The notes below the pieces were generated by a model. It did not search any database, was not told the DNA's origin, and saw only the letters and a list, made by a program, of their open reading frames with translations. Shown here one piece after another: positions 60,399-63,971 of a stretch of DNA of 64,000 nucleotides. The translations under genes and the position numbers were made by a program. This stretch comes from an uncultured Propionivibrio sp. GTDB lineage: Bacteria > Pseudomonadota > Gammaproteobacteria > Burkholderiales > Rhodocyclaceae. Within the stretch, counting starts at the first letter, position 1; each line of letters begins with the position of its first letter. Where the stretch lies: assembly GCF_963666255.1 (NCBI RefSeq), contig NZ_OY762656.1, positions 1,178,001-1,242,000 of the forward strand, read 5' to 3'.

Positions 60399-61295
60399 AT
60401 GACGGAAAAATCACAGACAGACAACACGGCGGAATATGCGCGGAAACCCGACAATGCGCCGGGCATTTGTCGCGCTGCCGACAACGACAGTCCCTCGCTG
60501 CCGCGTTATGCGCGCCTGCCTGTCAATCGCTGCAATGTCCCGCCTGTCATATTGGGGAGCCTGACGTTCCAGCGTCATCCGACCCCGCTCCAGCTCGATA
60601 GCGTCGCCGAACTGCATGCCGATCTCTTCCGTCGTCTTGACGCTATCGATGATGGCGCCGTGCGCGCCGAGGCCTTTCGCGATTACGTGACGGTGCGCTT
60701 CTGCCTGGAGAGTCTGGAAGAGGCCGGGCTGAGCGAACGCTCGCGGGGGCGTGCCAAGGCCAACTGGATGCGTGTGCTGCGCGGCTGGAGCTTTGACTCG
60801 GACGGGCGTGAAGGCGCCGTGCTCAAAGGCTGGGTGGAATCGCGTTTCGGACTGCTCGCGCGCTTTCACGGTGAACCGCTGCGCGATTTTTCCGGCCGGG
60901 GTTACCTGCGTTATCAGGAAATGCGCTCGGCCGGCCTGTACGGCACCAACGCGCTCGAAAGCCAGCTCGATCTGCTCTACGCCTTCAGTCAGTATGAATA
61001 CCGGCGTCGCGCGCCGGAGACGAAATGGATCGAGCTGTTCCGCGGCATCAACCGCATCAACGAACATGAAGTGCTGAACAAGAGCGGGCGCCGTCAGGTC
61101 GTGCTGTTCAACAACCTGACGTCGTTCAGTTCATCGCGCGAGCGTGCCGGCGAATTTGGCGACTACATTCTCGCCACCCGCGTCCCGGTCGAAAAGGTGT
61201 TCTTCAGCCACGCGCTGATTTCCGGCGTGCTCAAGGGCGAGGACGAATACCTCGTCATTGGCGGCGTGTACGACGTTACCCTCGCCACGCTGTAG
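60399..61295 (+). CDS. draT: NAD+-dinitrogenase-reductase ADP-ribosyltransferase DraT
   Basis: 298 aa from the ATG at 60399 (a GTG at 60390 is possible). Matches DraT over its length, e.g. [60 protein letters not shown] and [11 protein letters not shown]. Uses NAD+ to ADP-ribosylate Arg102 of NifH and switch nitrogenase off on ammonium or energy stress. Divergent from nifH; its first codons contain the NifA enhancer of nifH. Confidence 0.95.
60468..60483. promoter_or_regulatory. NifA upstream activator sequence
   Basis: TGT-CGCGCTGCCG-ACA, a perfect TGT-N10-ACA, about 100-115 bp upstream of the nifH -24/-12. It lies in the draT coding region (codons 24-29). Confidence 0.85.
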
Positions 61296-61324
61296 CTTTG
61301 TCGCAAACGCGACAAGACGACATC

Positions 61325-61359
61325 GTCATTGCCGGGCGGAAAGGCGGGAACCTCCCGCC
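61325..61359. repeat. REP-like degenerate element after draT
   Basis: GTCATTGCCGG followed by the hairpin GGCGGGA-ACC-TCCCGCC (61343-61359) in the 140-bp gap between draT and the SIR2-like gene. It shares the GTCATTGC start with the nif spacer palindromes. No U-tract. Confidence 0.4.
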
Positions 61360-61435
61360 GGTCCTCGTCATGAGGCGGGAATGAGGTGCGGTGCGTTTCT
61401 TGCATGGCGATTCCCGGACTCACCGAGGATCGCCC

Positions 61436-62302
61436 ATGGACGCCACGCTTGGCAACACGCTTCGCACGACACTTCGCACGACACTCCTATCCGGCCTGCA
61501 CGACGGCAGCATCGTTCCCTATCTCGGCCCCGGCGCGCTGGCGGACGTCGCGCATAAGAAGAAGGGCGTGCAGATGCCCGCCACCAGCGAGCAACTGATC
61601 CTCGCGATGAACGGCGGCCGGCCGATGGCGGCGAAGCTGATGTATGAATTCTCGCGCGCGGCGATGAACGTCGAGTTGAAGCGCGGACGCACGGCCGTCA
61701 CCCGCTTCCTCCACGACACCTACGCCGACCGCGAGTGGTCTCGGGCGAGCCTGCACGACTGGCTGCAATCGATCCGCCCACCCTATGTCATCGACATCAA
61801 TCGCGACACGCAGCTGCTGGACAGCTACGCCGGGTCGCCGCACACGCTGATCCTCGGCTGCGCGCGGATCGCAGGCACGAGTTATCGTTTCAAGCTTTAC
61901 CGCCACGACGGCACCGTCTATGCACCGATACTGCCCGACGAAGCCGATCCGCGCCTCCCGGTCCTGTTCAAGCCGATGGGCTGCCCACGGCCGCACCCGA
62001 GCTACATCGGCTCGGATGCCGACTATGTCGATTACATTACGGAGCTGATGGGCGGCTTTGCCGTGCCGCCGTTCGTCAAGGCCCTGCGCCGGGAGAAACG
62101 GTATCTGCTGCTCGGCATGCGTCTCAACCGCGATACCGAACGCATGGTGCTTTCCGATCTGATCCATGGCGCGGGGTCGCCCGCCGGCTGGGCGATGATC
62201 GCCGACCCGACGGTCAAGGAGCGGCGTTTCCTCGAACGCATCGGCATCGCGCTGATCGAGGACAGTTGGTTGGCGCTGCTACAGGCGGAGACGCTTACGT
62301 AG
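61436..62302 (+). CDS. SIR2-like protein encoded between draT and draG
   Basis: 288 aa from the ATG at 61436 (GAGGAT upstream). The order of motifs fits a SIR2_2-type NAD-binding fold: VPYLGPGAL (27-35) for the usual VPFLGAGxS, VIDINRD (118-124) for the TTNYD strand, FKPMGCP (178-184) where sirtuin-like proteins have K-x-HG, and YLLLGMRLNRD (223-233) for the LLFLGYSLxD strand. The catalytic His position seems lost, so binding of NAD+ or ADP-ribose rather than deacylation is inferred. Same strand as draT, 140 bp downstream; its end overlaps draG by 8 bp, convergent. Confidence 0.7.
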   Translation: MDATLGNTLRTTLRTTLLSGLHDGSIVPYLGPGALADVAHKKKGVQMPATSEQLILAMNGGRPMAAKLMYEFSRAAMNVELKRGRTAVTRFLHDTYADREWSRASLHDWLQSIRPPYVIDINRDTQLLDSYAGSPHTLILGCARIAGTSYRFKLYRHDGTVYAPILPDEADPRLPVLFKPMGCPRPHPSYIGSDADYVDYITELMGGFAVPPFVKALRREKRYLLLGMRLNRDTERMVLSDLIHGAGSPAGWAMIADPTVKERRFLERIGIALIEDSWLALLQAETLT

Positions 62303-63200
62303 CGCCGGTCGCCTTGTCGGCGCACGCCATCAGGGCTCGCGCCTGCTTGCGGCAGGCGAGGTTCACCGCCGGATCGAGCGCCCTGATCCAGCGCGGCGGA
62401 ATCGCCTCGATCCCGTAACAAGCGCCGGCGAGCATGCCGACGATGGCTCCGGTCGTATCGGCGTCGCCGCCGCGATTGACGGCATCGACGAGACAGCTCT
62501 CGAAGCTGTCGGTCTGCATCAGCGATTGCAGTACTACCTGCATCGTCTCGACGATCCAGCCGCTCGGATTTTCGCGCCGCCGCGTGCGATAGGAGCACTC
62601 GGGATTGGCGCTCACGTAGGGCAGGATGCAGCGGCGATAGACCGCGCTCAAGGGGGCGCCACGCAGGAACTGCTGCACGGCCAGCACGATGCACTCGCAG
62701 GCGGCGTCGGATGCCGGGTTGTGGTGCGTCACATGTGCCTGGGCGCGGACGCCGGCGCGGATCGTCGCTTCATCGCGGCCGAACAGCGCCAGTGCCACCG
62801 GCAGTACGCGCATCGCCGCGCCATTGCCGGCGTCGAATTCCGAGGACTTCGCCTCGGGATCGCCGCTGCGCCGGAAGGCAACCAGATTGCGCCGCACGGT
62901 GTTACCGATGTCGACCGGTTTGCCGCGCATCCAGGCGTCGAAGGCGCGCGCGCAGGACAGCGGCCTGACTTCGCCGTCGTCGTCGAGGATCGCCTTGCCC
63001 AGCGCCAATGCCATCGTCGTGTCGTCGGTGACCTGGCCGGGTTTGATGTTCAGCCAGCCGCCACCGCGGATCTCGTTGTGCACGCCGTAACGTTGCGCGA
63101 TCTCGCGCGGCATCATGAATTCGACCGTCGCGCCGAGCGCGTCGCCAAGCGCGAGTCCGAGATAGGCGGCTTCGGCGCGGGCGACGAGCGCGCTGTTCAT
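62295..63200 (-). CDS. draG: ADP-ribosyl-dinitrogenase reductase hydrolase DraG
   Basis: 301 aa from the ATG at 63200, giving the family start (ARAEAAYLGLALGDALGATV). Di-metal site motifs VTDDTTMALALGKA and VNRGGDADTTGAIVG are intact. Removes ADP-ribose from NifH Arg102 and reactivates nitrogenase. Last gene of a leftward ferredoxin-FeSII-draG cluster, so it is transcribed apart from draT. Confidence 0.95.
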   Translation of the reverse strand: MNSALVARAEAAYLGLALGDALGATVEFMMPREIAQRYGVHNEIRGGGWLNIKPGQVTDDTTMALALGKAILDDDGEVRPLSCARAFDAWMRGKPVDIGNTVRRNLVAFRRSGDPEAKSSEFDAGNGAAMRVLPVALALFGRDEATIRAGVRAQAHVTHHNPASDAACECIVLAVQQFLRGAPLSAVYRRCILPYVSANPECSYRTRRRENPSGWIVETMQVVLQSLMQTDSFESCLVDAVNRGGDADTTGAIVGMLAGACYGIEAIPPRWIRALDPAVNLACRKQARALMACADKATGAT

Positions 63201-63277
63201 GTCGGCACCTGGTTCGCCGTTGGGTTGCCGGTCATTCGTCGGGGCGGGGCGCGCCACAGGACGTGCCCCCGTCATCC

Positions 63278-63637
63278 TCAGCGGCTCGGATACTCGACGA
63301 TCATGTCCTCGTCGCGCAGCACCATCTGGCAGGCCAGTCGCCATTCGTTCGGCATGAAATCGTCGACCAGCATCTTGTCGACCTCGTCCTGCGTCACCTT
63401 GCCCATGTCCTTGAGGATCGCGATTTCGTGATCGGTCAGCGGATGCGCCATGCGCTTCTTGCGATCGAGCGGGAAGACCTTGACCAGGCAGTTGCCGCAT
63501 TCGCCATCGCCGCAACTGAAATCGATGGGAACGTGATTCTCCTTGGCGATGTCGAGAATCGTCTTCTTGTGGCTGCCGGTGACGGCATAGACGGTCTTGT
63601 CCTTGTGCAGCCGGCTGCTGAAAGTGATCGTGGGCAT
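63278..63637 (-). CDS. Shethna FeSII-like 2Fe-2S protective protein
   Basis: 119 aa from the ATG at 63637 (AGGAGTCAG region upstream). Cluster cysteines Cys42, Cys47, Cys50 (SCGDGECGNC) and Cys103 (RLACQ). The length, the start (PTITFSSRL), the LTDHEIAILKDMGKVTQDE helix region and the end WRLACQMVLRDEDMIVEY match the Azotobacter Shethna protein II pattern. That protein binds oxidised nitrogenase and shields it from O2. An ordinary 2Fe-2S ferredoxin is the alternative. Confidence 0.78.
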   Translation of the reverse strand: MPTITFSSRLHKDKTVYAVTGSHKKTILDIAKENHVPIDFSCGDGECGNCLVKVFPLDRKKRMAHPLTDHEIAILKDMGKVTQDEVDKMLVDDFMPNEWRLACQMVLRDEDMIVEYPSR

Positions 63638-63683
63638 GTCTGACTCCTCTGTGGTGAATGGACGACGAAGAAAGCGCCGGCGC

Positions 63684-63971
63684 TCAGGCCGGTTTGACGA
63701 TGACATCGCCTTTGAGCACCTGGGCCTGACAGGCCAGGCGGTGATGGCGCGGTGCCAGGTTGTCCTTCAACACCTGGTCTTCGATTACCGACGGAGCGGC
63801 GAGGTAGTCGTGGCCGGAGACGATCTCGGTCAGACAGGTGCAGCATTCGCCTTCGCGGCAGCCGTAGATGATGCCGGCGCCGATTTTTTCCGATACCTCG
63901 ATGAGGCGCGTTCCGGCAGGCACCGAGACGGTGATGCCGACGTCCTGGAATGTGACATTCGCTTTGGGCAT
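63684..63971 (-). CDS. 2Fe-2S ferredoxin, nif-linked
   Basis: 95 aa. Cys38-X4-Cys43-(Cys44)-X-Cys46 (GCREGECCTC) and Cys81 (RLACQA) give a plant/adrenodoxin-like 2Fe-2S site with one extra Cys. AAGGAGAAGC precedes the ATG. 46 bp upstream of the FeSII-like gene, likely co-transcribed with draG. Confidence 0.87.
   Translation of the reverse strand: MPKANVTFQDVGITVSVPAGTRLIEVSEKIGAGIIYGCREGECCTCLTEIVSGHDYLAAPSVIEDQVLKDNLAPRHHRLACQAQVLKGDVIVKPA

Follow-up and report, generated by a model that had tools for sequence, protein, structure and literature searches.

What is a gene for a SIR2-like protein doing between draT and draG, the two genes of the DraT/DraG nitrogenase switch, in a 64,000-nucleotide stretch of an uncultured Propionivibrio sp. 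(contig NZ_OY762656.1; the whole stretch is hereafter called the window)? The first-pass annotation had proposed a third component of the switch or, as an alternative, a diverged defence protein that landed there by chance. Our analysis points elsewhere: the gene is probably the local orthologue of pnfA, a nitrogenase accessory of diazotrophic Pseudomonadota that would keep nitrogenase working during respiration. The three genes at issue are the following.

60390..61295, plus strand: draT, dinitrogenase reductase ADP-ribosyltransferase (PF07357, 330 bits)
61436..62302, plus strand: SIR2-like gene, putative PnfA-type SIR2_2 pseudoenzyme of 288 amino acids (open reading frame, SIR2_2 match, orthologues)
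62295..63215, minus strand: draG, dinitrogenase reductase-activating glycohydrolase (TIGR02662, 372 bits, cut-off 337)

The SIR2-like gene lies 140 bp after draT on the same strand, as first annotated, and this adjacency recurs in relatives. It was also said to run into draG; an 8-bp overlap does exist, but the two genes are convergent, tail to tail, and not in the same direction. The ATG at 61436 is backed by the starts of homologues, and a GTG at 61391 is a possible alternative. The open reading frame is conserved at 55–97% identity in 15 other genomes of a 59-genome set of relatives, and a chance reading frame is ruled out by this conservation, by matches to SIR2_2 and by the profile comparison described below. 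The homologues form two groups, A, which includes the window protein, and B.

Three genome sets were used to compare the occurrence of the gene with that of nif genes and draT: a class sample (370 genomes of at least 90% completeness, drawn evenly), a phylum sample (299 genomes) and the relatives set. The per-genome search scored the first 6 or 8 candidates only, and its query alignment (A1) contains just two group B sequences, so group B may be undercounted. Genomes with nifD below the TIGR01282 cut-off were counted as nif-negative, with the exceptions of G588, G126, G265, G008 and G026. The 37 nif-positive class genomes thus comprise 36 over the cut-off and G588, whose nifD is split over two contigs; of the 37 nif-positive phylum genomes, 35 exceed the cut-off, and the other two are G126, whose single match is as strong as those seen for nifE here, and G265, which has a match of that strength plus a fragment. 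In the class sample the SIR2-like gene was found in 31 of the 37 nif-positive genomes and in none of the 333 others, so that 31 of 31 carriers are nif-positive. All 16 carriers of the phylum sample are likewise among its 37 nif-positive genomes (0/262 of the others). In the relatives set, 17 of the 18 carriers (16 with strong and two with weak matches) have nifD, 15 over the cut-off and two partially (G008 and G026); the exception to occurrence in diazotrophs only is G022, an 85%-complete genome with no nifD match. The contig of G022 that bears the gene (C66, locus L198) also shows a partial draT match (profile positions 151–255) 6 kb away; it is possibly a decaying nif region, or the genome is merely incomplete.

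The gene does not follow draT in this way. DRAT was matched in 19 class genomes, and the SIR2-like gene is present in 14 of these 19 versus 17 of the 18 nif-positive genomes without draT. The 37 nif-positive class genomes accordingly divide into 14 with both genes, 17 with the SIR2-like gene only, five with draT only (G437, G444, G551, G656 and G706) and one with neither (G536). In the phylum sample the corresponding fractions are 4/23 with draT versus 12/14 without. Both associations are negative in direction (Fisher p = 0.18 for the class and 8e-5 for the phylum, descriptive values that ignore kinship). Among the nif-positive phylum genomes, DRAT was matched in 19 of the 21 non-carriers and in 4 of the 16 carriers, a near mirror image that involves families f57, f60, f64 and others (genomes G064, G076 and G099, for example) and that possibly reflects ancestry alone. 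In the relatives set, all 16 genomes with a strong match have DRAT (16/16), and two further genomes (G006 and G034) have nifD and draT with no match to the SIR2-like gene. The gene goes with the nif genes, not with the DraT/DraG switch, and the linkage to draT across genomes that the first-pass annotation proposed to test did not hold.

The neighbourhoods were compared in a set of loci that combines a named scan (the best 80 of at least 512 confirmed relatives), regions from an unnamed collection and four plasmids. The set gave 131 complete proteins from 139 loci; the eight loci left out had a SIR2-like gene that was absent, cut or off-length, and the loci are not independent, some genomes being present in both collections. 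Of the 105 group A genes, 26 have draT upstream on the same strand no more than 700 bp away and 22 have it at 0.7–9 kb (48 within 9 kb); eight are directly divergent from nifH without draT between, 11 meet a contig end and 38 lie in other places. On the opposite strand, draG is found up to 9.5 kb downstream in 47 of the 105 loci. In contrast to the window gene, all 26 group B genes lie downstream of nifT, on the same strand and within 3.5 kb, usually in the order nifB-fdxN-nifZ-nifT-SIR2, as in Rhizobium etli p42d and R. tropici, and their products share 21–26% identity with the window protein. A match to the SIR2-like gene was found in 71 of 72,556 plasmid records, 54 of which are labelled Rhizobium. 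A FastTree tree of 121 rows, in which the group B branches are long, was used for two points only. Group B forms one clade, and the label "draT between nifH and the SIR2-like gene" is scattered: it changes 20 times, and well supported branches require at least 10 of these changes. The space between nifH and the SIR2-like gene is simply occupied by draT in some lineages.

What, then, controls the gene? The promoter elements below, like all those discussed here, are motif-scan predictions, and they are listed together with the nifH frame to which two of them belong.

59397..60377, minus strand: nifH (open reading frame; nifD of the same cluster passes TIGR01282)
60355..60369, minus strand: nifH sigma-54 promoter TGGCACGGTCCTTGC, 11/11 consensus positions
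60468..60483, strand unassigned: palindromic NifA activator site about 100 bp upstream of the nifH promoter, within the 5' end of the draT frame
61299..61314, plus strand: perfectly palindromic NifA upstream activator site TGT-N10-ACA, TGTCGCAAACGCGACA, in the gap between draT and the SIR2-like gene
61389..61403, plus strand: sigma-54-like -24/-12 element CGGTGCGTTTCTTGC (8/11 consensus positions), predicted promoter of the SIR2-like gene

The true start of nifH is probably the inner Met of MAKLRQ at about 60290, as judged from the reading frame. If the start of draT at 60390 or 60402 is right, its N-terminal codons would bear a second constraint, the NifA site of nifH at 60468–60483.

A sigma-54-like element stands about 35–50 bp before the start in most of the 60 homologue rows inspected. 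As the full signature we counted a sigma-54 element that matches at least 8 of 11 consensus positions and is preceded at 40–220 bp by a NifA site, in the 300 bp upstream of the gene. This pair precedes 72 of 101 group A genes, versus 0.2 expected from two-base-block shuffles, and none of the 26 group B genes. It is found before 20 of the 26 SIR2-like genes that directly follow draT and before 23 of the 38 in other places. In the 46 draT-bearing loci, the pair stands before the SIR2-like gene in 37 and before draT in none; nifH has it in 33 of 42. On these counts (37/46 versus 0/46), the SIR2-like gene is predicted to be expressed along with nitrogenase; draT, by the pair test, does not share that control.

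Is the product an enzyme? The window protein matches PF13289 (SIR2_2) at about 29 bits (28.9–29, cut-off 24.5), and the three SIR2_2-type motifs by which the first-pass annotation recognized it are all present. In an alignment of 59 members (A2), 57 match SIR2_2 at E 0.01 or better, and none of the 59 was reported as a member of the classical sirtuin family. A search of the PDB with the single window protein returned nothing useful, but the A2 profile matched KomC (E 1.3e-4), ThsA (0.014) and DSR2 (about 0.05). Eight SIR2 proteins with intact catalytic residues, one of them adjoining a TIR gene, were collected by a search with part of KomC; a profile-profile comparison (hhalign) with them gave Prob 98.6 and E 5e-16 over 234 columns, versus Prob 0.6 or less in 20 of 20 column-shuffled controls. 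The relationship to the SIR2/Rossmann fold suspected at the outset is thus upheld at the level of sequence profiles.

Compared with SIR2 proteins that have intact catalytic residues, most of the pocket motifs are altered: GAGxS aligns with GPGxL, TTNYD with DINRD, KxHG with KPMG and GYSxxD with GMRLNRD. In the window protein the Asn is kept (N122), the position of the catalytic His is taken by M181 (KPMG), in agreement with the first annotation, and the phosphate loop reads GPGxL instead of GAGxS in the register of the profile alignment. Across group A, the Asn is kept in 38 of 38 sequences, the window protein included, and the His of KxHG in 0 of 38. In contrast, the 21 group B sequences all have Trp for the Asn of TTNxD, and six of them retain the His. 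The six (from L217, L221, L140, L222, L223 and L225) read PHG, which keeps the KxHG His, with Trp at the catalytic Asn. Judged from the alignment, the two branches have lost opposite halves of the active site, and both residues occur together in 0 of 59 sequences. A possible rival register comes from a local HMMER match to KomC, which sets KFHG beside the FKLYxxDG stretch of the family; the KPMG register is favored by the full-length profile alignment and by the six group B members with PHG at that column. The ThsA mutants N112A and H152A lost both NAD+ (nicotinamide adenine dinucleotide) cleavage and NAD+ binding, and the His mutant lost its oligomeric state too (PMC7272460). Because the motifs are altered and these mutants lost both functions, catalysis by the window protein is very unlikely as predicted from its sequence, and NAD+ binding is not the likely case.

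The closest described counterpart is PST1325 of Pseudomonas stutzeri A1501, named pnfA in 2010, which is reported to be divergent from nifH, preceded by a NifA site and a -24/-12 promoter, dependent on NifA and RpoN, and to encode a 31.7 kDa product (PMC2820453). Its homologues are described there from diazotrophs only (A. vinelandii 72%, Azoarcus BH72 55%, Dechloromonas aromatica 54% and Halorhodospira halophila 49% identity), in two subfamilies of 49–92% and 20% identity, which resemble our groups A and B. In a non-polar pnfA mutant, the nifH transcript was unchanged and nitrogenase activity was much lower at 0.5% O2; activity was wild-type-like without O2 and without nitrate, and nitrogen fixation was lost with nitrate as the acceptor (PMC2820453). 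The main text of that paper has no occurrence of the term SIR2 and suggests a UspA/ETF-like role for PnfA in electron transfer or O2 protection; a 2024 table labels PST_1325 a "SIR2 family protein" (PMC11332353). The window protein is like PnfA in size, in its predicted NifA/sigma-54 promoter, in its diazotroph-only occurrence and in the SIR2 label. The position divergent from nifH is shared as well, the order in the window being nifH, draT, SIR2-like gene. Unlike in A1501, where draT and draG were reported as not found (PMC2820453), draT stands between nifH and the gene in the window and draG follows it. By analogy, we infer that the window orthologue would share the phenotype of the pnfA mutant.

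SIR2-type proteins have been noted in other nif clusters, such as RHE_RS30545 of R. etli p42d, Rcc03262 of Rhodobacter capsulatus, which lies beside NifT, and ZMO1821 of Zymomonas, and a nifZ-nifT-SIR2-like order is described in Rhodovulum (PMC9412634). The first three share SIR2-type annotation and nif linkage with the window protein; R. etli is among the 21 aligned group B sequences, all of which have an incomplete catalytic pair, and Rcc03262 and ZMO1821 lie outside the alignment. Among openly licensed papers, we found none that joins the pnfA mutant, the "SIR2 family protein" of nif clusters and the defence-type SIR2 folds, or that gives a mechanism.

The genes downstream of the SIR2-like gene handle O2 or carry electrons in many relatives. 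In 38 of the 95 group A loci with enough sequence, a bacteriohemerythrin gene (PF01814) stands no more than 2.5 kb downstream on the same strand, and 40 hemerythrin genes were found in the 105 loci versus 0.48 expected from the density elsewhere in the same loci. An Fe-superoxide dismutase gene is downstream in four of the 95; in one locus (L180:8560-10082) the SIR2-like gene is followed by Fe-superoxide dismutase and bacteriohemerythrin genes on the same strand. In the window, neither is found after the SIR2-like gene; draG is there instead, followed by two ferredoxin genes.

63278..63706, minus strand: 2Fe-2S ferredoxin (Fer2, Pfam match), recurrent downstream of the SIR2-like gene in relatives
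63684..63971, minus strand: second 2Fe-2S ferredoxin (Fer2, Pfam match)

The order at the end of the window is thus nifHDK (minus), draT (plus), SIR2-like gene (plus), draG (minus) and the two ferredoxins (minus). Up to 9.5 kb downstream of the SIR2-like gene and on the opposite strand, 37 of the 105 group A loci have a ferredoxin of the first kind and 40 have one of the second.

Two further proteins recur downstream in relatives. One of 185 amino acids (L087:10853-11410, for example), with no Pfam family over the cut-off (best ThrE, E 0.15), is encoded within 2.5 kb downstream in 14 of the 95 group A loci, directly after the SIR2-like gene in 12 of the 14, and ahead of hemerythrin in 10 of these. 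The other, of 320 amino acids (L048:12119-13081) and also with no Pfam family over the cut-off, is encoded within 2 kb on the same strand in six loci, two of them of one genome.

We propose the following mechanism for a PnfA-type protein. As taken from the published mutant, it would be needed for full nitrogenase activity under O2 or nitrate respiration, with nifH transcription unaffected. Produced together with nitrogenase, its presumably non-enzymatic SIR2-type Rossmann domain would hold or sense a nucleotide or redox state, or bind nitrogenase or an electron-donor partner. Nitrogenase would thus stay active and supplied with electrons while respiration competes for reductant and O2 is near, and O2 would be supplied or buffered by the bacteriohemerythrin that many relatives encode in what looks like the same operon.

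The same evidence can be read in other ways. A role in the switch, with the protein binding NAD+ or ADP-ribose, is suggested by the physical neighbourhood in the window and in many Rhodocyclaceae loci, by the presence of DraT in every strong carrier among the window's relatives, by draT on the same strand within 700 bp in 26 of the 105 group A loci and at 0.7–9 kb in 22 more, and by draG downstream in 47. However, no draT match was found in 17 of the 31 class carriers or in 12 of the 16 phylum carriers, the intervening draT comes and goes on the SIR2 tree, draT lacks the promoter signature of the SIR2-like gene in all 46 loci, and pnfA acts in a strain reported to be without draT and draG (PMC2820453). 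A third component of the switch, as first annotated, is thus improbable. It is hardly credible that the protein serves in defence as an active SIR2 enzyme that consumes NAD+, or that it is a diverged defence protein that came to lie here by chance. The closest solved relatives of the family profile are mostly defence NAD+ hydrolases (KomC, ThsA and DSR2), which belong to the same fold family, and in a PADLOC search at E up to 1, matches to ThsA came from 18 of the 59 relatives (best 2e-6) and matches to LmuA from 13 (best 7.6e-9). The window protein itself had no PADLOC match, and unlike the defence proteins, which keep GAGxS, TTNxD, KxHG and GYSxxD, it has lost catalytic residues and stands in a nif context with strict nif linkage and a NifA promoter signature; an anti-phage defence system was rejected as a candidate on these grounds.

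A sirtuin-type deacetylase that reverses the acetylation of Nif proteins has been guessed for ZMO1821, which is part of the nif island in an organism said to be without draT and draG (PMC8594446, PMC8600466), rises under N2 fixation, and occurs where Nif proteins are acetylated (PMC8600466). For the window gene this is very improbable: the two sirtuin catalytic residues never occur together in the 59 relatives, the match is to SIR2_2 and not to the classical sirtuin family, and the candidate was rejected because the pair is incomplete in 59 of 59. One may also picture a maturation or chaperone-type factor, a SIR2-fold scaffold acting with NifZ, NifT, NifB and ferredoxins in metallocluster supply or MoFe protein assembly, which would matter most when O2 damages the clusters. 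The position of all 26 group B genes downstream of nifT, mostly in nifB-fdxN-nifZ-nifT runs, would favor such a pure assembly factor, the incomplete active site fits a scaffold, and both Rcc03262 and NifT were missing from the proteome of an R. capsulatus nifA mutant (PMC6925177). However, group A genes lie outside the nifB-nifZ-nifT operon, most with their own promoter signature, and a core maturation factor would not allow the wild-type-like activity of the pnfA mutant under anaerobic conditions without nitrate (PMC2820453). We regard this reading as possible but rather unlikely. A guard or adaptor during respiration is preferred over a pure assembly factor because the phenotype is tied to O2 or nitrate respiration and the neighbours handle O2 or carry electrons.

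Several observations weigh against the reading of the window gene as a pnfA orthologue that guards nitrogenase during respiration. The gene was unmatched in 6 of the 37 nif-positive class genomes and in 21 of the 37 of the phylum sample. The full promoter signature is absent in 29 of the 101 group A genes, and lone sigma-54-like elements precede draT in 19 of the 46 draT-bearing loci (44 precede the SIR2-like gene). In 38 of the 105 group A loci, neither nifH nor draT lies where expected. Hemerythrin is absent downstream in the window and in 57 of the 95 group A loci, and from all 26 group B loci, which are placed with nifB, nifZ and nifT instead. Nucleotide binding by the window protein is doubtful, given the altered GAGxS, KxHG and GYS motifs and the loss of NAD+ binding in the ThsA mutants. 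The orthology with PnfA is argued from layout, size, annotation, control and reported identities. The phenotype itself comes from one study of one strain, in which complementation is "data not shown"; so is the finding that nitrogen-free semisolid medium still supports growth of the mutant, which is Nif+ (PMC2820453).

Other features of the nif region of the window were noted. A 334-amino-acid protein with no Pfam match is encoded at 53777–54781 (minus strand), and a reading frame that resembles it by eye recurs in 12 of the best 80 named loci. A DcaP-type outer membrane porin is encoded near the nif genes at 51908–53236 (minus strand). The product of 54799–55512 (minus strand) has both DIMCO_N and Nitro_FeMo-Co domains, and we take it to be of the NifX/NifY/NafY kind.

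For the family as a whole, these results remove a tempting but wrong link between the SIR2-like gene and the DraT/DraG switch, and they connect three lines of literature: work on the pnfA mutant, on nif-cluster genes annotated as "SIR2 family protein" and on defence-type SIR2 folds. Tentatively, the proteobacterial nitrogenase gene set may widely include a dead sirtuin that has been overlooked. Its two branches lie either beside nifH with a NifA promoter of their own or in the nifB-nifZ-nifT operon, and during respiration it may serve as a guard that responds to nucleotides or redox state, partnered for O2 in group A by bacteriohemerythrin. If so, most of the nif-positive class genomes sampled (31/37) would make a sirtuin-fold protein together with nitrogenase, and this could matter for the transfer of nif gene sets to aerobic hosts, in which activity is limited by O2 and electron supply.

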